Positions 262 to 12,040 of a DNA stretch of 25,648 bases are shown here, piece after piece (within the stretch, counting starts at the first letter, position 1; each line of letters opens with the position of its first letter). The translations under genes and the position numbers were made by a program. This DNA is from a virus: positions 1-25,648 of the IMG/VR virus record IMGVR_UViG_3300025362_000033; one strand, written 5' to 3'. Under the pieces are notes generated by a model. It worked only from the letters and a program-made list of their open reading frames with translations. It was not told the DNA's origin and did no database searches.

Positions 262-675
262 ATGGAAATTAAAGATTTGATTTTTAAAGGTCGGGTGGTT
301 AGTAGAAATGTTTGGATTTAAGGATCGCTGATATTCTTTGATGATTTCAAAAAAGGAATTAGAAAATATTTTATCTTCCAGAATAATCATATTAATCCAC
401 AGAGTAACTCAGCTATCTTCTATGAGGTTGAATTTAAATCAATCAAACAATATATTGGTAGGAAAGATAAGAACCGAGAAATGATCTTCACTAAGGATAA
501 ATTGGTTACTTCTAACGATGATCCAAAATTTGATATTTGGACTGAGAAAGATTTTGGAATTACAGAAGTTTACTGGAACGAAAAATATAAAAGATTTGAT
601 GGAACCAAGTGGTTTATTGAAGATGCTGATGAGAGTGTTTATGGAATAGAATTTGTTTCAATTTTGAAAGATTAA
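262..675 (+). pseudogene. YopX-like phage protein interrupted by an in-frame TAA
   Basis: The frame opens with ATG at 262 and stays aligned to the TAA ending at 675, apart from one in-frame TAA at 319-321. The residues before the stop (IFKGRVVSRNVWI) and after it (GSLIFFDD) match the family pattern in which a 'FRGKR...NGEWVYG.L' N-terminus runs on without a break, so the stop sits where a Tyr or similar residue is expected (TAT or TAC changed to TAA). Further on, QYIGRKDKNRE at about residues 67-77 matches the YopX signature 'GQYTGLKDKNGKEI'. An internal ATG at 481 gives a 64-residue open stretch but has no ribosome-binding site. The simplest reading is a nonsense-mutated gene; a sequencing error or a shortened functional product is possible. 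YopX proteins are common in phages, and their role is unknown to me. Confidence 0.75.
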
Positions 676-725: not shown

Positions 726-878
726 ATGTCAAAGTGTGGATGTGAGTGCCAGATATATAGTCGTGTGGTGGGTTTCTATAGACCCGTTAGCCACTGGAAT
801 TTAGCTAAGAAAGAAGAATTTAAAGAAAGACTAAATTATAATGTGAAGAAAACAAAAACACTAAAGAAAACTGGTTGA
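726..878 (+). CDS. Stand-alone C-terminal glycyl-radical segment of anaerobic ribonucleotide reductase (NrdD-like, 50 aa)
   Basis: The ATG at 726 has a clear AAAAAGGAA site 7 bases upstream and the frame ends in TGA at 878. The product begins MSKCGCECQIYSRVVGFYRPV, then S-H-W-N and an EEFKER helix. This matches the extreme C-terminus of class III ribonucleotide reductase NrdD: the second half of its zinc site (here C4, C6, C8), the R-V-V-G-F/Y segment whose glycine (G16 here) carries the radical, and the conserved 'YRPV..WN.GK.EEF' tail. A full NrdD is roughly 600-700 residues; here only this tail exists, and no NrdD body lies elsewhere in the window. Known glycyl-radical spare parts such as GrcA/YfiD repair pyruvate formate-lyase, and by analogy this could complement a host or distant phage NrdD. 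It could also be a broken exon or a remnant. Confidence 0.8.
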   Translation: MSKCGCECQIYSRVVGFYRPVSHWNLAKKEEFKERLNYNVKKTKTLKKTG

Positions 879-1494: not shown

Positions 1495-2472
1495 ATGAAT
1501 ACAATAGTTAAAATGATTTTTGGTTCACGTCTATATGGAACTGATACCGAAAATTCTGATACCGACTATAAAGGAATATTTATATCAGATCATAAAGATA
1601 TTCTTCTACAAAAAGTTCCTAAGTCAATAGACAATTCTACAGGAAAGATGCATGTTAAAAATACCAAAGATGATATTGATGTAGAAATGTACTCCATTCA
1701 TCACTTCTTTAAACTTGCATCGGAAGGACAAACCGTGGCTATTGATATGTTATTTGCTCCAGAAGATAAAATTATCGAATCTTCACTAGTTTGGAAATTA
1801 ATTGTTAAGAACAGGAATATGTTTTTATCAAAGAACCTTAAAGCTTTTGTTGGATATTGTAGATCACAAGCGGCACGATACGGCGTAAAAGGTGGAAGAG
1901 TTAATGCACTAAAACAATTTAAAGAAATTTTGGAAAAGGTAAATTATGTTGGAGTTAAAGAGTGTACACTAAAATTAATCTGGAAACATTTACCAATCAA
2001 TGAGCATAGTAGAACATATATTGAGCCAAAGAACTCTATGTCAATGTATGAGGTATGTAGTAAAAAATTTGAATCAACCGCTAAGGTTGAATATGTTTTA
2101 ACTCAAGTAAATAAAATATATGATAATTATGGAGCAAGAGCAAAGGAAGCTGAGAAATCTGAGAACATAGATTGGAAAGCTATTTCCCACGCATTTAGAG
2201 TGTGCTACGAGATGCTTGAGATATTACGAGATGGTACAGTTACATTTCCATTAGCTGATGCTCAGTTTCTTCGAGAATTGAAATTAGGACAATATCATTA
2301 TAAAAATGACGAAATTGGATTACGATTAGATTCTTTGTTAGAAGCTGTTGAATTAGTTAGTGAAGAATCAACATTACCAGATAATGTCAATCAAAAAGAA
2401 ATTGATGAGTTCTTATATAAAATTTTATATGGTAGATTTTGTAGAGATATTTTTCCATCTCAGTTAATATAA
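1495..2472 (+). CDS. Phage nucleotidyltransferase (pol-beta-like superfamily, 325 aa)
   Basis: Residues 10-25 carry the nucleotidyltransferase signature: G10-S11 followed by LYGT and then S-D-T-D-Y-K-G, with D22 and D24 as the metal-binding carboxylates. A further acidic cluster near residues 58-65 (DDIDVE) could supply the third carboxylate. This matches the predicted nucleotidyltransferases grouped as COG3541, often found in large phages, which are thought to transfer a nucleotide to RNA, protein or a small molecule; the substrate is unknown. The C-terminal 200 residues are helical and resemble the family's accessory domain (RSQAARYGVKGGRV, then AFRVCYEMLEIL). It is third in the 969-2472 operon. 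Length and motifs look intact. Confidence 0.88.
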   Translation: MNTIVKMIFGSRLYGTDTENSDTDYKGIFISDHKDILLQKVPKSIDNSTGKMHVKNTKDDIDVEMYSIHHFFKLASEGQTVAIDMLFAPEDKIIESSLVWKLIVKNRNMFLSKNLKAFVGYCRSQAARYGVKGGRVNALKQFKEILEKVNYVGVKECTLKLIWKHLPINEHSRTYIEPKNSMSMYEVCSKKFESTAKVEYVLTQVNKIYDNYGARAKEAEKSENIDWKAISHAFRVCYEMLEILRDGTVTFPLADAQFLRELKLGQYHYKNDEIGLRLDSLLEAVELVSEESTLPDNVNQKEIDEFLYKILYGRFCRDIFPSQLI

Positions 2473-2490: not shown

Positions 2491-3519
2491 ATGAACAAAG
2501 AAAAATTAAATCTAGTTGCCGTTGAAACCGAAGAATGTAAAATCTATCTATCAGATCATAGAAGTTGTGGTGATAAATGGAATAATTATGAATTAGATGA
2601 TTATCTCTTTGATGGAATAGAACCATCTAAAACATTTGATCAAAATTGGGTATGTCTGGATAAACCACCAACTAAAATTACTAAAATGATTAATCAACCA
2701 AATATTAATCATCGCTTTGAATTAACAGATAAAAGTTTAATCTCAGATAAAATTCCAGAAGTTCTCAAAAGAGAAGATGTGGTTCTTAATGGTGAAGATG
2801 GTTATTACTGGAAAGAGGAATATGCAAAGTATAAATCTCTTTATGTTGAGATGTCCGACAAACAGGAACCGATAGAAGAGGAATATGAATTTAACTTAGA
2901 TATTGTAATTAAAACCAAAAAAGTTTCTGATCCTGTTAACATGTCTTATATTGTTCCAAAAACAGAATGGAGTAGTGATGGAATGACTACAATTACATCT
3001 AAAGACGTTAAACATCAATTAGTTGATAAGATGATGTTTCCAAGTATTCTTCTTCCACAACGACCATGTAAACTAACATCAACTCAAACATATAAAATAA
3101 TTCGTCAATATATTAAAGACAATATTAATCCACAGGTTGCTAAAATTACTTCGGATTATGATTTTTGTTTTACTGTTAAACGTAGAATTAAATTAGCCGA
3201 AATTGTAAAATATACTGTTGATGTAAATAATGGAATATTTCAAAAGAGAAAACGTAAACCAAAATATGTCAATAGACAACAGACCGAGAAAGAAGAAACT
3301 TGTTTCTCTATGGGACATTCTGGACATCCTTACGATGGATATGAATCAATTAAAGGATTTGAAGCCAGTAATCAAGAAGAATTAAAAGAGAAGATTGATA
3401 ACTATTGTGAAGAATTAATAAACTTTATCAACGCTAAATTTGAAGAATGTAAACATTGTAAAGGTAACGGTGTTGTTTGGAGTGAAACTAAACCAGAAAG
3501 AAAGGAAACTAAAGAATGA
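2491..3519 (+). CDS. Unknown 342-aa protein with C-terminal CxxCxGxG motif
   Basis: An AAAAGGAAG site precedes the ATG at 2491. The protein is hydrophilic and without signal peptide or membrane segments. Residues 130-150 and 230-250 are basic and beta-rich. Near the C-terminus, at about 320-327, is CKHCKGNG, one half of the C-x2-C-x-G-x-G unit seen in DnaJ-type zinc fingers; a single copy could bind zinc only with another cysteine pair or partner. Its stop overlaps the next gene's ATG (ATGA at 3516-3519), so the two are coupled. I do not recognise the family. It probably continues the 969 operon because only 18 bases separate it from the nucleotidyltransferase. Confidence 0.75.
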   Translation: MNKEKLNLVAVETEECKIYLSDHRSCGDKWNNYELDDYLFDGIEPSKTFDQNWVCLDKPPTKITKMINQPNINHRFELTDKSLISDKIPEVLKREDVVLNGEDGYYWKEEYAKYKSLYVEMSDKQEPIEEEYEFNLDIVIKTKKVSDPVNMSYIVPKTEWSSDGMTTITSKDVKHQLVDKMMFPSILLPQRPCKLTSTQTYKIIRQYIKDNINPQVAKITSDYDFCFTVKRRIKLAEIVKYTVDVNNGIFQKRKRKPKYVNRQQTEKEETCFSMGHSGHPYDGYESIKGFEASNQEELKEKIDNYCEELINFINAKFEECKHCKGNGVVWSETKPERKETKE

Positions 3520-3772: not shown

Positions 3773-3796
3773 TTACAATTTAAACAAATAATAACA

Positions 3797-4041
3797 AAAG
3801 AGGTGTTGCTCTTAAACGCAATATACTCATCAAGCGATGGCTCAAGGACTTTTGTTGTATTTATTCTCTTTGTTTTAATCATCACTGTGTTGACTGTATT
3901 CATTCTAGCCATCAAAGCTTTAACAACATCAGCTTCGGTCACTACCGTATTACCTGTTCCTAGCCCTAGCGAATCTAAGCTGATAGTGTTCGTACCAATA
4001 AGAATAGAGTTAATAATATTACTGTTAAAAACTTTTTCATA
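3797..4041 (-). pseudogene. Decayed fragment of the 467-aa secreted-protein gene fused to a fibre-downstream remnant
   Basis: Positions 3797-4012 align without gaps to 8409-8624 inside the 467-residue gene. The translated match runs from INSILIGTNTISLDSLGLG to LEPSLDEYIAFKS, compared with LEPSLDEYMAFKS in the full gene. From 4012 to 4041 the sequence instead resembles the start of the secreted 173-residue gene: an ATG just after the fibre stop opens MKKFLTVILLTLFLL and then hits TAG. The remnant therefore joins the first codons of one gene to the middle of another, with everything between lost. It has no credible start of its own; a GTG at 3942 opens 69 residues but has no ribosome-binding site. 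The reading frame also ends in unrelated sequence beyond 3797. I call it non-functional. Confidence 0.75.
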
Positions 4042-4760
4042 TTATTCAATCTCCGTTTTGGTCTTATCTACCATTATCGTGCCACCTATATTTCTAAGTG
4101 TGATGATATATTTTCCTGTTTCGCCAGCACCTATTAGCTCAGTTGCTTTAGGTGTTACGGTTGTGGCATTAGCATTATCAACCTCTATTTCAAGAACATC
4201 ACCTGCTATACTATTTATCATAGTCATACTTGTAACAGGGGTTGCGGCGACAGTTGCTATTTGCTGATAGTCGCCCCTTGCAAAGTCAAGACTTACTGCT
4301 CCGCTTTCCGCGCCCTCGTCATATTCAACAGCAGGGTGTTTGTGTAAATGGCTTGCGGGGGTATTGCTTCCACCTGTTAATGCTTTAATTGCCACCGCTG
4401 GGAGTTCGGGAATAATCATTGAGTAATTTGGATAGGTGCTTGCGAACCAATCTGATAAGGCTACCCAAGTTGAACCTGTGCTGTTATATAGTGTTCTAAT
4501 GCGAGTGTAGTAGTTAGTTCCAGCAACGGCAGTCTGTAATGCAAATCGAATCTTATTGCCGTAATATGCCTTAACCGCTCCGCCCGCTGGCATTGCCACC
4601 CAATCAGTACCGTCAAATAGTTGTATATTAGCTTGAGAACTTGAGCTGTTAAATGTTTCGACTGAGGTGTCGTAAGTTGCATCGCTGTATATCTGCAATT
4701 CAAAGTGTAAGGCTAGTTCGCTATTATTGTTTGGAATATTTGATTCGATGTACATTGCCT
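4042..4760. repeat. Duplicated fibre C-terminal module, copy B
   Basis: This segment is highly similar at the nucleotide level to 10046-10759, with long identical stretches across the 3' ends of both fibre genes. Both copies have the same orientation. Similarity stops at the start of the shared module (about 4757/10757), where the two N-terminal parts diverge completely. It is either a gene duplication or recombination of an adhesin module. Confidence 0.88.
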
Positions 4761-4956
4761 GTGAACCGCCGCCAACTTCAACGACTGTACCGGCGCTATC
4801 CTTCGTGGACAGCTTATTCGAGTTAGTCGAATCGTTAAACAGAGCGAATTTTCCCGACGGTGCATTAGGAACATTCGCCGGATCGATCGCATCAAACAGC
4901 AACCCGCCCTGAATGTTCGTATCACCAACTATCTTATACTTTACAACGTTTGCCAT
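4042..4956 (-). CDS. Short tail fibre / receptor-binding protein (304 aa), paralogue of the 664-aa fibre
   Basis: The first 65 residues are unique: a Val/Ile-rich start, then an NAPSGKFALFNDSTN segment typical of phage fibre N-termini. From about residue 66 the protein is a close copy of the last 240 residues of the 664-residue fibre. The shared part runs from QAMYIE.NIPNNNSELALHF, through VEYDEGAESGAVSLDF, to a terminal GETGKYIITLRNIGG segment. Modular fibres with unlike N-termini and a shared C-terminal half are usual for adhesins, so this is probably a second or alternative receptor-binding protein. Differences cluster around shared residues 110-160 (SDWFASTYPNYSMI versus SDWYAGTYPNFPLH), which may be the variable tip. 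It starts three bases after the 33-residue miniprotein gene. Confidence 0.78.
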   Translation of the reverse strand: MANVVKYKIVGDTNIQGGLLFDAIDPANVPNAPSGKFALFNDSTNSNKLSTKDSAGTVVEVGGGSQAMYIESNIPNNNSELALHFELQIYSDATYDTSVETFNSSSSQANIQLFDGTDWVAMPAGGAVKAYYGNKIRFALQTAVAGTNYYTRIRTLYNSTGSTWVALSDWFASTYPNYSMIIPELPAVAIKALTGGSNTPASHLHKHPAVEYDEGAESGAVSLDFARGDYQQIATVAATPVTSMTMINSIAGDVLEIEVDNANATTVTPKATELIGAGETGKYIITLRNIGGTIMVDKTKTEIE

Positions 4957-7502: not shown

Positions 7503-8906
7503 TTATTCTCCATTTGTGACATGCCACTCGGATTGAGCAACGTTGTCGGTTATGTTAGGGGGGTAGTTGCCATCACTACCATCACCTGATAAAGTTATTG
7601 TGCCAGCGAATCCAGCACTAATAAACCTTTTTTCTATTCTTGCAATAATACTTCTGTTCTCCTGTTTGGTTTTGTTAGTATTGTATCTGCTCATGTAATA
7701 AGGTTTCTCACCTACTACAACATTTATTAAAGGTAAAGCAGTCTTCTTACGGACAAACCGCATTACACCTTTAGCATAACTATTGCCAACTCCACAATTT
7801 ACTGTAATCACTCCTGACATGTTGGCAGGGATATTATAAGCTACATCACCATGCTTTCTTGTTTCAGAGTTATAGTCAAAGTAAACTTCACCAAATAGCA
7901 ATATCTTTTTATTACCCTTACGGACTTGCTGTAAAGTATAGTTCGTCCAGCCTTTTTCGGGCTGGAATAAATGTCTGCTACTTCTACGCCAACCTAATAC
8001 AAAACCATCACAAACTTTTGCAAGTTCTTGTAAACGTTTACCATACATTTTAGTTGGTAGATAAATCGGTGTGCTAGTGCTTTCTTTACCCCCAAAAGTA
8101 AACCAAACTTTATATCCAAGCTTCTTAGCTATCTTAATTCTTCTTATCAGCGGATTAGTTCCACCACCTCTCCAGCAAGCCAATACAGCGTTATAACCCA
8201 TCTTCTTAAAATACTTTAACTCGGCTCTAAGGTTTTGCTTATTACCCTCTTTCCGTATCTCAGCAAGCATCTTTAACTTAGTGTCTGTGAATGGTCTGTA
8301 TTTAATGGTCTTAAACTTCTTCTTATTAAACGCTTTCCATTTCTTGAACATACCTCTATTCTTTTTGCGGAAACCTTTATCACCTGTCTTAGTGTAACGG
8401 TCTTTGATAAAAGAGGTGCTGGATTTGAACGCCATGTATTCATCAAGTGATGGCTCAAGAATCTTAGCTGTTCTTATTCTCTTTGTTTTCATCATTACTG
8501 TGTTGACCGTATTCGTTCTAGCCATCAAAGCCTTGATAACATCAGCTTCGGTCACTACCGTATTACCTGTTCCTAACCCTAGCGAATCTAAGCTAATAGT
8601 GTTTGTACCGATAAGAATAGAGTTGATATAATTAGTATCAATAGTTGAAGTACCAAGACTGCTAGTACCAATAGTTGAAGTACCAATCATCTGATTATCC
8701 ATTGTGAGCGTTGCGATATCTTCAGCTGTAAGAAAAACGTTCTCTATCATAGTTGGATGAACTATCTCAGCAAGTACTAGTGTAGGTAGAACAAACACTA
8801 CTTCGTTTTCTGCATCCATTGCATCAAGTTCTGCTTGTGTCGGCAAATCTTCCTGCGCAAATAAACCTAAGCTACACACCATTAAAATTAAAAATAAGTA
8901 TTTCAT
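7503..8906 (-). CDS. Secreted protein with beta-repeat N-terminus and TIM-barrel-like (glycoside-hydrolase-like) C-terminal half (467 aa)
   Basis: The start at 8906 has a very strong AGGAGG site and opens a signal peptide, MKYLFLILMVCSLGLFA. Residues about 80-125 are a Gly/Thr/Ser/Ile repeat (MIGTSTIGTSSLGTSTI and on to SLDSLGLGTG) likely to form a beta-helical or fibrous stalk. Residues 125-200 are basic and helical. From about 210 the pattern of alternating strands and helices looks like a TIM barrel: ELKYFKKMGYNAVLACWRGG, AKKLGYKVWFTFGGKE, ELAKVCDGFVLGWRR, KKILLFGEVYFDY, and a C-terminal AGFAGTITLSGDGSDG. This resembles glycoside hydrolases, but catalytic acids cannot be assigned by eye. 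It could trim surface glycans. A fragment of it recurs at 3797-4012. Confidence 0.78.
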   Translation of the reverse strand: MKYLFLILMVCSLGLFAQEDLPTQAELDAMDAENEVVFVLPTLVLAEIVHPTMIENVFLTAEDIATLTMDNQMIGTSTIGTSSLGTSTIDTNYINSILIGTNTISLDSLGLGTGNTVVTEADVIKALMARTNTVNTVMMKTKRIRTAKILEPSLDEYMAFKSSTSFIKDRYTKTGDKGFRKKNRGMFKKWKAFNKKKFKTIKYRPFTDTKLKMLAEIRKEGNKQNLRAELKYFKKMGYNAVLACWRGGGTNPLIRRIKIAKKLGYKVWFTFGGKESTSTPIYLPTKMYGKRLQELAKVCDGFVLGWRRSSRHLFQPEKGWTNYTLQQVRKGNKKILLFGEVYFDYNSETRKHGDVAYNIPANMSGVITVNCGVGNSYAKGVMRFVRKKTALPLINVVVGEKPYYMSRYNTNKTKQENRSIIARIEKRFISAGFAGTITLSGDGSDGNYPPNITDNVAQSEWHVTNGE

Positions 8907-8907
8907 G

Positions 8908-9507
8908 TTATACCGCCTCCTTGTATTGCCATTTATAACCGCCTGCTGAGTTTGCTTTTCCTTTACAACATTTTGCAATATTACTGTGGTCAATAAGTAT
9001 TTCTCTTTCTGCGTGTTTTGACGAATAAAAGTCCTTTATAAACTCCCCACTCAGGGTAAGTTGACAAACCGCTTTAGATAGTTTATTATTTACACCATTA
9101 ATTGCATCATCGTGTCCTTTTTTATTATTTTCCTTAAACGTCATAAGCTGTATATTTTCTAAAGTATACCCAACATAATCATCTATTCTATCAACACTTG
9201 GCACTAACCATAAATCAAAATTACTATCTTGCCACGCTTTGAAGAGTTCATGGAATAATGTTTGTGAACATAACCATTCTTTTAATTCCAACTTAGTATA
9301 TAGAGGCAGTGCCATGTTTCTATGTAAACTGTTTTCTTTTTGTGATTTATATATCTTAGTTACAAAACCATCTATGCTATGAGCATATTCTTTATAATAA
9401 ATACTATAACATTGTTTACACTGATTTGTGCATCCACCTTTGTGACACTTACTTTTATTAAAATTACTAAAAGATAGTATCTTACCACATGTTCTACATT
9501 TTTTCAT
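8908..9507 (-). CDS. HNH-family homing endonuclease with NUMOD-like C-terminus (199 aa)
   Basis: ATG at 9507 follows AAAGGAA; the longer open frame upstream overlaps the 173-residue gene and has no ribosome-binding site. The N-terminus is a zinc finger: C-R-T-C near residues 4-7 and CTNQCKQC at about 26-33. The nuclease core is P-S-V-D-R-I-D, then YVGYTLENIQLMTFKENNKK at about 113-132, matching the 'VDRID...GY...N......N..K' pattern of HNH homing enzymes. The C-terminal 50 residues (AVCQLTLSGEFIKDFYSSKH, then AKCCKGKANSAGGYKWQY) are a NUMOD1-type DNA-binding module. It lies between two secreted-protein genes and runs with them, as expected of a free-standing homing gene that has settled in an operon. 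Confidence 0.9.
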   Translation of the reverse strand: MKKCRTCGKILSFSNFNKSKCHKGGCTNQCKQCYSIYYKEYAHSIDGFVTKIYKSQKENSLHRNMALPLYTKLELKEWLCSQTLFHELFKAWQDSNFDLWLVPSVDRIDDYVGYTLENIQLMTFKENNKKGHDDAINGVNNKLSKAVCQLTLSGEFIKDFYSSKHAEREILIDHSNIAKCCKGKANSAGGYKWQYKEAV

Positions 9508-9524
9508 TTTTAAAATTCCTTTAT

Positions 9525-10046
9525 TTAGCGTCGTACTGTTCCGACAGTCATACTGAAACACCACTGGTCTCTCCAGCCGTTTGTTCCCTCAGCAGTTGTA
9601 TCAACATCTATTTGGGCATTGACCGTAGTTGCATCTGTTACTTGTAGTCTTACTAATAGCACGTCTCCCGTGGCTACGCCAGCAGGATTAAAGTTATATC
9701 TTCCAAATAATGGAATCGGTTTACTGTAATCAAGAACCCAAGTAAAGTTCTCTAAATTATTTACTGTTTTCCAAGTTGTTCCACTTGCGTATTTCCATTG
9801 TAACAAAGCCATCTGAATAGGTGTTCCGTTTGTAACACTCGGAACAGCTTTAATTAGAATAGTACATGGAACATTTTGTGTACCAGCTTCGGGAGCAGAT
9901 ACAGTTGGAAACGTTCCAAAGGTTGGTGTGATGTCTGTATCATTTACTCTTGTAAAGTAAACCACCTGCCAATCTGTGGCTGTAAACCAACAAGCACTTG
10001 CTATGATGGTTACTGTTAACAGTAATGCTGTTAATAGTTTTTTCAT
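9525..10046 (-). CDS. Secreted beta-rich protein downstream of the fibre (173 aa)
   Basis: It begins at the fibre's stop (TAATG overlap) and opens with a signal peptide, MKKLLTALLLTVTIIASA, followed by CW; the A-S-A/C end could serve signal peptidase I or, less well, form a lipobox. The mature domain is beta-rich with many Thr, Val and Trp (TDWQVVYFTRVNDTDITP, WKYASGTTWKTVNNLENF, DVLLVRLQVTDATT) and resembles an immunoglobulin-like or carbohydrate-binding fold, though no family is clear. Coupling to the fibre suggests a fibre-linked role such as surface modification or superinfection control, but this is inference. Confidence 0.75.
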   Translation of the reverse strand: MKKLLTALLLTVTIIASACWFTATDWQVVYFTRVNDTDITPTFGTFPTVSAPEAGTQNVPCTILIKAVPSVTNGTPIQMALLQWKYASGTTWKTVNNLENFTWVLDYSKPIPLFGRYNFNPAGVATGDVLLVRLQVTDATTVNAQIDVDTTAEGTNGWRDQWCFSMTVGTVRR

Positions 10047-10759
10047 TATTCAATCCCCATTTTGGTTTTATCTACCATTATTACACCACCTATATTTCTA
10101 AGTGTGATAATATATTTTCCTGTTTCGCCAGCACCTATTAGCTCAGTTGCTTTAGGTGTTACGGTTGTAGCATTAGCATTATCAACCTCTATTTCAAGCA
10201 TATCACCCTTTCCGCTATTTGACATAGTAATACTTGTTATGGGCGTTCCAGAAACCGTTGCCATGGTCTGATAATTACCCCTTGAGAAATCAAGGCTGAC
10301 TGCCCCGCTTTCTGCACCCTCGTCATATTCAACAGAGCTGTGCTTGTGATATGCGCTTGCATCTGTATTACTGCTTTTGGTTAATGCCGCAACAGCAACA
10401 GGCGTAATGTCCGGGATATGCAAAGGGAAGTTTGGATAAGTTCCAGCATACCAGTCTGATAATGCTTTCCAGGTACCATCTAAATAAAGCGTTCTAATGC
10501 GGGTATAATATATAGTCCCCGCAACGGCAGTCTGTAATGCAAATCGAATCTTATTGCCGTAATAAGCAAGCACAGCGCCACCAGCGGGCATTGCTACCCA
10601 ATCAGTTCCATCAAACAATTCTATATTCGTTTGCGAACTCGAGCTGTTGAATGTTTCGATAGAGGTATCGTAGGTTGCATCTGAATATATCTGTAGTTCA
10701 AAATGTAAGGCAAGTTCGCTATTATTGTTCGGGATATTTGCTTCAATATACATTGCTTG
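10046..10759. repeat. Duplicated fibre C-terminal module, copy A
   Basis: This is the partner of 4042-4760, in the same orientation. The most conserved parts are the final 140 bases of coding sequence and the block encoding YYGNKIRFALQTAVAGT. In this copy the module is followed by an intact secreted-protein gene, while in the other copy only the first codons of such a gene remain. Confidence 0.88.
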
Positions 10760-12040
10760 AGCATCGGCACCGAGTTTTTTTCTAACGACAGCCGCATTTG
10801 TAATATATGGAACTCCGCTTGAATCCACCTCCAATGCTCCGGCTTCGGCAGTTGTATTTAAAACTGCGCCCGGAAGTGTGAATTTTAAAGGAGAAGTTCC
10901 TGCGGTTGCAGTTCCTAGTGATAGCACAACACCACGAAAAAAATCAAAATTTGTTGTATTAAAATGAGCTAGAGTATTAACTCCTTTTATAATAGTAAAT
11001 CCTTTATCTGTAACATTTGATAAAGACACAGAAGTTGTAGATGTATTTGTTATAGCTATTTCTGATTGAAACAGGAGCCTTGAACCCTCGAAAAAACCAG
11101 TGCCGTAAGTACCGCCAGTAACATAAATACTTTCATTAACTGACAGCGGTCTAGTTGAAACAGCAGCCCTGCCAATCCCAACAGCTCCATTAGTTGTGTC
11201 AATAGTAATAACAGGAGTCGTGCCATCGGCTTTTGTAATCTGAATTGCACTCGTTGAATCGGCGGATGGTTTGATTATTGGAGTTGTGATTGAAGTGCTA
11301 AAAACAAAATCACCACCAGCAAAAGTAAGATTACCAGATGAATGAGTTATTGTAATATCTGAAGTAGATGCCGCTGTTGAGAAGTCTATTACTGCCTCGT
11401 TTCCTAAATATAAATCCGACCAGGGTATCGCAGAAGTCCCAAGCGAATCTGTATTATAAGTATCAGAAACTAGGCTTTCGTTTATTGCTACAGAAGCCAA
11501 ATTATCTAAAGCTGGAGCGGTAAAATTTAAAAGCGACTTAACCGTTGATACACTTAACACTTCAGGAACACCAACACCAGCCGTATTTCGTCCAATAAAA
11601 CTAGCTGTCGCCATGTCATTCATTTTTGCCAACGTAACTTTCTTATCAACTATCGTCAAAGCACCAGCTCCGGTTACATCTCCGGTATGAGTGGCGTTTG
11701 TAAATTTGGCAGAATTCGCAACCACCGCTAAATTTGCAGACACACGAGATTCTGTATAATATAAATTAGTGCTTTCCTCAATATCAGCCGTAACTAAAAC
11801 AACAATGCCAGTATCACCATTAACTGAATCAACAGCACCTTTCGTATCTGTATCTACCCAAGCTGAACTATCTCCATCCCAAACCCACCATGTATCTGTA
11901 TCATAATTAAATACAAACCAACCAAGTTCTCCAGTTGGATACGCAATGTTTATTGCGGCTTCATTTGCATATTTACCTTTGTCATATAAATCAACATCGG
12001 ATGCTCTTAGTTTTTTTAGAAATGGATCATATTTTGGCAT
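10046..12040 (-). CDS. Long tail fibre protein (664 aa)
   Basis: An AAGGAAT site precedes ATG at 12040. Residues 1-75 look like a virion-attachment segment (GELGWFVFNYDTDTWWVWDG). Residues 75-180 have the typical fibre module VNGDTGIVVL..ADI.E..NLYYTESRV and FIGRNTAGVGVPEVLS. The middle is a Ser/Thr/Ala-rich shaft, with a further motif 'ADGTTPVITIDTTNGAVGIG' at about 260-280. The last 240 residues form the receptor-side module shared with the 304-residue protein. There is no visible peptidase-type intramolecular chaperone. Long length, low charge and repetition mark it as a trimeric fibre that binds the host surface. Confidence 0.88.
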   Translation of the reverse strand: MPKYDPFLKKLRASDVDLYDKGKYANEAAINIAYPTGELGWFVFNYDTDTWWVWDGDSSAWVDTDTKGAVDSVNGDTGIVVLVTADIEESTNLYYTESRVSANLAVVANSAKFTNATHTGDVTGAGALTIVDKKVTLAKMNDMATASFIGRNTAGVGVPEVLSVSTVKSLLNFTAPALDNLASVAINESLVSDTYNTDSLGTSAIPWSDLYLGNEAVIDFSTAASTSDITITHSSGNLTFAGGDFVFSTSITTPIIKPSADSTSAIQITKADGTTPVITIDTTNGAVGIGRAAVSTRPLSVNESIYVTGGTYGTGFFEGSRLLFQSEIAITNTSTTSVSLSNVTDKGFTIIKGVNTLAHFNTTNFDFFRGVVLSLGTATAGTSPLKFTLPGAVLNTTAEAGALEVDSSGVPYITNAAVVRKKLGADAQAMYIEANIPNNNSELALHFELQIYSDATYDTSIETFNSSSSQTNIELFDGTDWVAMPAGGAVLAYYGNKIRFALQTAVAGTIYYTRIRTLYLDGTWKALSDWYAGTYPNFPLHIPDITPVAVAALTKSSNTDASAYHKHSSVEYDEGAESGAVSLDFSRGNYQTMATVSGTPITSITMSNSGKGDMLEIEVDNANATTVTPKATELIGAGETGKYIITLRNIGGVIMVDKTKMGIE

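Follow-up and report, generated by a model that had tools for sequence, protein, structure and literature searches.

A stand-alone glycyl-radical tail in a phage genome fragment, a probable subunit of a split anaerobic ribonucleotide reductase

We conclude that the short gene at positions 726-878 (plus strand) of the viral DNA analysed here quite probably encodes the glycyl-radical subunit of a split class III (anaerobic) ribonucleotide reductase (RNR). What we observed is homology to NrdD, a radical glycine that never varies, purifying selection, and tails strictly paired with tail-less NrdD wherever both were seen; docking of the tail, its activation by NrdG and catalysis are inferred from the homology and the pairing, without docking, radical or activity data. 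In the mechanism that we propose, the catalytic NrdD barrel would be a protein of its own, carrying the thiyl-forming finger loop together with all or most of the zinc ribbon and stopping just short of the glycine loop; the tail, of ~50 aa, would dock in trans on this tail-less NrdD, with the tail loop entering the barrel. NrdG would generate the radical on the tail glycine, and the radical would pass to the finger-loop cysteine, starting ribonucleotide reduction as in fused NrdD.

The 726-878 gene and the window around it

The window, by which we mean the whole stretch of DNA analysed, makes up an entire IMG/VR record, yet this linear record of 25,648 bases covers only part of a larger phage genome. 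Since it encodes a portal protein (PHROG 213) and a tail sheath stabilizer (PHROG 227), we take it to be a piece of a T4-like myovirus. The ORF at 726-878 starts with an ATG at 726, has its stop codon within that span, and is preceded by a ribosome-binding site (AAGGAA, 714-719) located 6 bases 5' of the ATG; its 50-aa product reads MSKCGCECQIYSRVVGFYRPVSHWNLAKKEEFKERLNYNVKKTKTLKKTG. An earlier sequence-only reading had described a 50-residue gene with its own ribosome-binding site that encodes only the end of class III NrdD, and both parts of this description were confirmed. The product matched Pfam PF13597 (NRDD) over profile positions 526-562 of 562 (35.5 bits against a cut-off of 26.2, E 6.2e-9) as well as the NCBIfam NrdD models, among which PRK08579 gave the lowest E-value (3.1e-10). 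No Pfam family besides NRDD was matched up to E 10, and no second NrdD stretch was present anywhere in the 25,648-base fragment. With a significant PF13597 match in hand, a lack of similarity to NrdD in a profile search, which would have refuted the earlier reading, was not realised.

The product resembles the fused class III NrdDs (PF13597), such as those of T4 and T. maritima, in its R-V-x-G-Y/F loop, its P-V-x-x-W-N segment and its GKxxEFxxR tail, aligned end to end at profile 526-562. Gly16, in the segment SRVVGF (codon at 771-773), aligned with the radical glycine of NrdD and is the predicted glycyl-radical residue, in agreement with the role first proposed for R-V-V-G, and the conserved C-terminal motif PVxxWNxxKxxEFxxR (783-830) includes the columns P+4, K+12, E+15 and R+19. 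The ORF thus meets both criteria that define the NrdD tail, namely a significant match to the C-terminus of PF13597 and a glycine in R-V-x-G-Y/F, and, being a separate short ORF with its own start and ribosome-binding site, it also meets one criterion for the split-subunit grouping that we propose.

Unlike fused NrdD, the 50-aa product stands by itself, and the barrel, the finger loop and most of the zinc ribbon are missing from it. Lacking the ten-stranded barrel and the finger-loop cysteine, it is not a complete class III RNR catalytic subunit, and the four-ligand zinc ribbon that precedes the glycine loop is likewise missing, only C4, C6 and C8 (codons at 735-749) being found there. C4, at position -12 from Gly16, corresponds to the last zinc cysteine of fused NrdD. 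Part of the zinc site had been assigned to this gene; at most that last cysteine remains of the claim, since in split relatives the ribbon lies mainly or wholly on the large protein. The product has three cysteines compared to one in most stand-alone tails, and an alanine at +11, where glycine is conserved in 97% of them; both departures weigh against the split-subunit reading. Judged by its sequence, it is a member of the NrdD tail region, and neither a complete NrdD nor a GrcA.

No NrdG was detected in the 25.6-kb window with the NrdG2 model, and the absence of both barrel and activase here counts against that reading too. Searches for close relatives of the window phage through its portal, Gad1-like protein and nucleotidyltransferase returned none or one remote relative, the large-virus portal search being without a positive control. 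Several other features of the window were recorded. A homologue of the Gabija anti-defence protein Gad1 is encoded at 2491-3519 (plus strand; PDB 8u7i Gad1, E 3.4e-42), with 30-36% identity to proteins of SPbeta-group and Clostridioides phages, and its presence suggests that the window phage may counter Gabija. The gene at 1495-2472 (plus strand) encodes an RlaP-type nucleotidyltransferase of an RNA repair pathway (Pfam E 6e-15; PHROG 388 E 2e-89). The ORF at 262-675 (plus strand) has an in-frame TAA at codon 20 (MEIKDLIFKGRVVSRNVWI, stop, GSLIFFDD...) followed by 117 more open codons; it looks, by context only, like a YopX-type protein in which one codon became a stop by mutation or sequencing error. 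Duplications of 233-300 bases with 81-86% identity (4034-4778 and 10038-10776; 3796-4028 and 8409-8641) are common to neighbouring minus-strand ORFs, probably tail-fibre genes, and a weak, below-cut-off match to NUMOD1 or I-HmuI at 8908-9564 (minus strand) suggests a homing endonuclease beside the fibre genes.

Stand-alone tails and their barrels in viruses

A second stand-alone tail was identified by tblastn of named phages in ANMV-1 virus (AJP62049.1), whose 38-kb genome has no other NrdD, and a third in IMG/VR locus L003. Two DNA patterns, in which a ribosome-binding site and an ATG are followed after no more than 14 codons by R-[VI]-x-G-[YF] and then W-N, were run against IMG/VR and yielded ~125 loci (L012-L135), mostly tail-only, with a minority of ends of fused NrdDs. 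Together with the earlier finds and a later pattern match, this gave 110 viral tail-only loci encoding 99 distinct proteins with a median length of 49 aa. An ATG start was present in 104 of the 110 and a ribosome-binding site in 109, although the latter figure arises partly by construction, because the search patterns demanded that site for most tails.

Glycine was found in all 47 matches (44 within stand-alone ORFs) of a third scan in which its codon was left free. Columns that the first two patterns had not specified were near-invariant across 98-99 distinct tails (P+4, 99%; G+11, 97%; K+12, 96%; E+15, 96%; R+19, 99%), and a cysteine stood at column -12 in 51% of stand-alone tails and at column -8 in 49%. 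For 30 moderately close pairs of tails, the median dN/dS was 0.14 and no value exceeded 1. Stand-alone tails are under purifying selection.

The tails share their strand with replication and recombination genes, including ResIII/DEAD helicase (18 loci), AAA_24 (13), DUF669 (11), RusA (8) and DUF3799 (8). A neighbour-gene cluster of 13 loci that included the NrdD barrel was a mixed cluster; by direct check, a barrel lies near the tail in five loci. Some tails depart from the usual form. Two related viral tails, L098 (about 1979-2182) and L100 (about 3088-3291), have an in-frame TAA between PV and QWN and were recently broken, and the 47-kb viral record G023 (the contig of L063) contains two separate stand-alone tails (27407-27601 and 45522-45632). 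In L005 (3680-4114), L052 (about 219-500), L086, L105 and L136 (642-893), the tail is longer, with a cysteine-rich part resembling a zinc ribbon added at its N-terminus; this extension before the glycine loop, common to these tails and that of ANMV-1 virus, is an apparent second architecture.

We searched for NrdD in 97 distinct tail-carrying viral records. A large NrdD was present in eight (G012, G014, G019, G026, G027, G033, G043 and G173), and all eight stop at profile position 525-536, the tail missing in each; the barrel of G173 has in-frame stops and may be interrupted. No fused NrdD was found in any of the 97, so an intact NrdD frame running into the tail, the other outcome that would have counted against the earlier reading, did not occur. 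The search that this reading had advised, for an NrdD lacking its C-terminus in the rest of the genome, found none within the 25,648-base fragment, which holds only part of the phage genome; the tail-less NrdDs come from these eight other records. In L144 (G014), nrdD is followed by nrdG and then by the tail, which begins 10-20 bases past nrdG, while in L143 the tail lies 66 bases downstream of nrdD. An NrdG2-type activase was detected in six of the seven viral records with split NrdD that were tested, and strong or moderate NrdG2 scores were confined to records with a split barrel, no other activase families having been included in the search. The tail-less NrdDs of L142-L145 (G019, G033, G014 and G043) contain large internal inserts, with open frames of 839-1080 aa; the insert breaks the profile match near position 263, and these are probably inteins.

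Split NrdD is present in seven of the nine tail-carrying viral records larger than 70 kb and, below 70 kb, only in G173. For this reason, and by analogy with those large viruses, the barrel of the window phage may lie in the missing part of its genome; alternatively, it would be the barrel of the host. In about nine tenths of the viral records with a tail, no barrel was seen. Exact direct terminal repeats of 107-175 bases, the usual sign of a complete genome, were present in 11 of the 30 tail-only records tested, so that eleven phage genomes are apparently complete and have the tail, with NrdD and NrdG2 absent. These phages therefore probably use a host barrel, and since most tail-carrying records have no barrel, eleven of them in apparently complete genomes, most such phages appear unable to make the split enzyme alone, a point against the split-enzyme reading. 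Most likely, tail-only phages supply the radical subunit to a host barrel. DNA similarity searches for hosts of the isolate prophages L039, L050 and L062 returned no match.

Split NrdD in bacteria and where the chain divides

The only match in a single-sequence search of genome contigs was a prophage tail in the complete chromosome of Synergistota bacterium L-13. This prophage (L137), which has primase, helicase, terminase and head genes, is the sole tail case with a known host, and L-13's own NrdD is split: a 678-aa nrdD (ending ...SVCPVHGYIPGAHEFCPYCDAERGYVEEEKIS) is followed by nrdG (TIGR02495, E 1.5e-50) and then by a 52-aa tail. In 18 of 188 Synergistota genomes, NrdD stops at profile position 529-536 of 562, after the zinc ribbon. 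Seventeen of these have a separate ~50-aa tail (profile about 528/532-562) some 0.75-0.9 kb downstream, past nrdG, and the eighteenth is cut by a contig end. None of the 87 Synergistota genomes with a complete fused NrdD has a separate tail, and the association between tail and tail-less NrdD in this phylum was significant (Fisher p 1.1e-18). These counts omit a few drafts in which NrdD is cut by contig ends (e.g. G244, G269 and G273; G244 has a tail 0.55 kb upstream of the start of an NrdD), and the host-side survey is confined to one phylum and its 188 genomes. The nrdG gene lies between barrel and tail in L139 and in the other Synergistota loci where the motif caught nrdG, and in all 15 further Synergistota loci that were read NrdD ends directly past the second cysteine pair.

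The same division was found on five bacterial plasmids or megaplasmids in all, each with a tail-less NrdD and a separate tail gene. On plasmids of Bradyrhizobium ottawaense, Aquabacterium olei and Sulfuricurvum kujiense, the order is nrdD, a 58-63-aa tail, nrdG, and the tail is annotated 'nrdD' in the records; in Paracoccus denitrificans and Cupriavidus metallidurans, the split is likewise present, in unannotated stretches. The bacterial 'nrdD' proteins WP_035682077 (Bradyrhizobium) and WP_013449874 (Sulfuricurvum) resemble the window's gene as 58-63-aa tails that adjoin a tail-less 'ribonucleoside triphosphate reductase' and an activase. Their names, however, come from automatic pipelines, and the viral tails are more diverse and usually without a barrel. 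NrdD is fused in Actinomyces oris and Geoalkalibacter. The proposal that the gene is the second part of a split NrdD is therefore directly supported in relatives, by 17 Synergistota genomes, five plasmids or megaplasmids and eight viral records. A contig artefact or a broken exon as the general cause is ruled out by the terminal repeats in 11 of 30 records and by the chromosomal split operons.

A tree of barrels built with a quick method required six changes between split and fused, three of them forced by starred branches, and with at least three forced changes the state must have changed more than once. This tree, from which fused Synergistota are mostly missing because the motif did not catch them, clusters the states but does not distinguish splitting from re-fusion.

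The zinc ribbon of T. maritima NrdD is placed between the last barrel strand and the Gly621 loop (PMC4493059), and the natural split, between ribbon and loop, thus falls at a domain boundary. Aligned to PDB 4coi, the L-13 barrel matches as far as residue 610, eleven before Gly621. The MCCR finger loop was present in all 21 split barrels that were read without interruption, and most split barrels keep the full C..H..C..C set. Some viral ones end in CPYDT or CPYPH without the last cysteine, and the G026 tail has a cysteine where the last zinc cysteine would be; from this we infer that in some pairs the zinc site may be shared between barrel and tail.

Possible roles of the tail and related systems

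The split subunit was weighed against other roles for the peptide. It could replace the C-terminal end of an oxygen-cleaved fused NrdD in the host, in the manner of GrcA/YfiD and T4 Y06I. Cleavage of NrdD by oxygen does occur at the radical glycine (PMC3019208), and in phage T4 a spare part for a different glycyl radical enzyme is proven, with others deemed possible (PMC8683613). Tail-only phages lack both NrdD and NrdG2, and many tails begin inside the zinc motif, as though cut from a fused NrdD. The distribution of tails speaks against such a repair: Synergistota with fused NrdD never have a separate tail (0 of 87), the sole prophage tail in that phylum resides in a host with split NrdD, and fused NrdD is absent from all 97 tail-carrying viral records. 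We regard this role as rather unlikely, although for tail-only phages the rescue of oxygen-cleaved fused NrdD is not excluded. Only tentatively do we advance a broader proposal, in which the radical glycine of class III RNR can be exchanged as a subunit: phages of anaerobes would carry a ~50-aa version of this subunit in their replication modules and use it during infection to power or re-power host NrdD, including oxygen-cleaved NrdD.

Small phage proteins, as is generally known, often inhibit host enzymes, and the part that NrdG must recognise is within the tail alone, so the peptide might instead bind host NrdG or NrdD unproductively and thereby block or redirect host dNTP synthesis. A pure inhibitor, however, would have no need of the radical glycine, which is invariant, and tails neighbour replication genes and also belong to nrdD-nrdG operons in free-living bacteria, for which an inhibitor would be senseless; we consider this very improbable. 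The idea that the ORF is no more than the end piece left by a disrupted nrdD is scarcely tenable: it could appeal to the coverage of only the last 37 NrdD positions and to the in-frame TAA in the tails of two related viral loci, but 99 distinct proteins keep their start, length and residues, dN/dS is well below 1, and the ORF has its own start codon and ribosome-binding site, with no NrdD debris flanking it in the window.

The glycyl-radical subunit that we favour has partial counterparts among known proteins. GrcA/YfiD of E. coli and Y06I of phage T4 are likewise small and separate, and each bears the radical glycine on behalf of a large glycyl radical enzyme; in T4, the phage itself encodes it. 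Spare parts have been validated only in these two cases, both for pyruvate formate-lyase, others being called possible (PMC8683613). GrcA/YfiD differs, however, in being of the pyruvate formate-lyase type, ~127 aa long and disordered in its N-terminal half, and the 726-878 product is not in that domain family. Unlike this repair part, the tail in split RNRs looks like an obligatory subunit. In NrdJa/NrdJb of Pseudomonas aeruginosa, an RNR catalytic chain is also divided, with its C-terminal part a separate protein (PMC9669993), but that enzyme is class II, B12-dependent and without a glycyl radical. The 'nrdD' of ANMV-1 virus (AJP62049.1, annotated as 144 aa) is likewise a tail-only protein in a viral genome without other NrdD, from which the window's product differs in lacking the extra cysteine-rich N-terminal part. 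The ANMV-1 tail was published as a whole 'oxygen-sensitive ribonucleotide reductase' (PMC4372165), a reading that finds no support in the protein's sequence.

In reviews of RNR evolution, class III chains include the glycyl-radical domain, and class II is the only class for which a split is listed (PMC9669993, PMC9531940); the split nrdD reported in phages is interrupted by introns or endonucleases, or fragmented (PMC3653736). In the open literature, we came across neither an account of a class III RNR whose glycyl-radical subunit is separate nor a paper on the bacterial split nrdD arrangement or its meaning; subscription papers were outside the search, and a prior description is possible. The sequence-only reading knew of no such phage protein, which holds for the open literature except that the 144-aa ANMV-1 tail had been published, as a whole RNR.

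A recurrent natural split that puts the radical on a ~50-aa protein implies that radical storage and catalysis can be separate parts, whereas the open RNR literature has class III as one chain with a built-in radical domain; the split also provides a ready two-piece system for the study of radical transfer. The finding also bears on the question, left open by GrcA/YfiD, of whether other glycyl radical enzymes have spare parts (PMC8683613), and it cautions that small phage ORFs annotated 'nrdD' should not be taken for a whole RNR, as happened with ANMV-1 virus. For phages of anaerobes, the tail represents a widespread and hitherto unnamed dNTP-supply gene. Should the radical glycine indeed be an exchangeable subunit, it would be the first case of a spare part or radical carrier for an RNR, and would give a virus a minimal means to control host dNTP synthesis.
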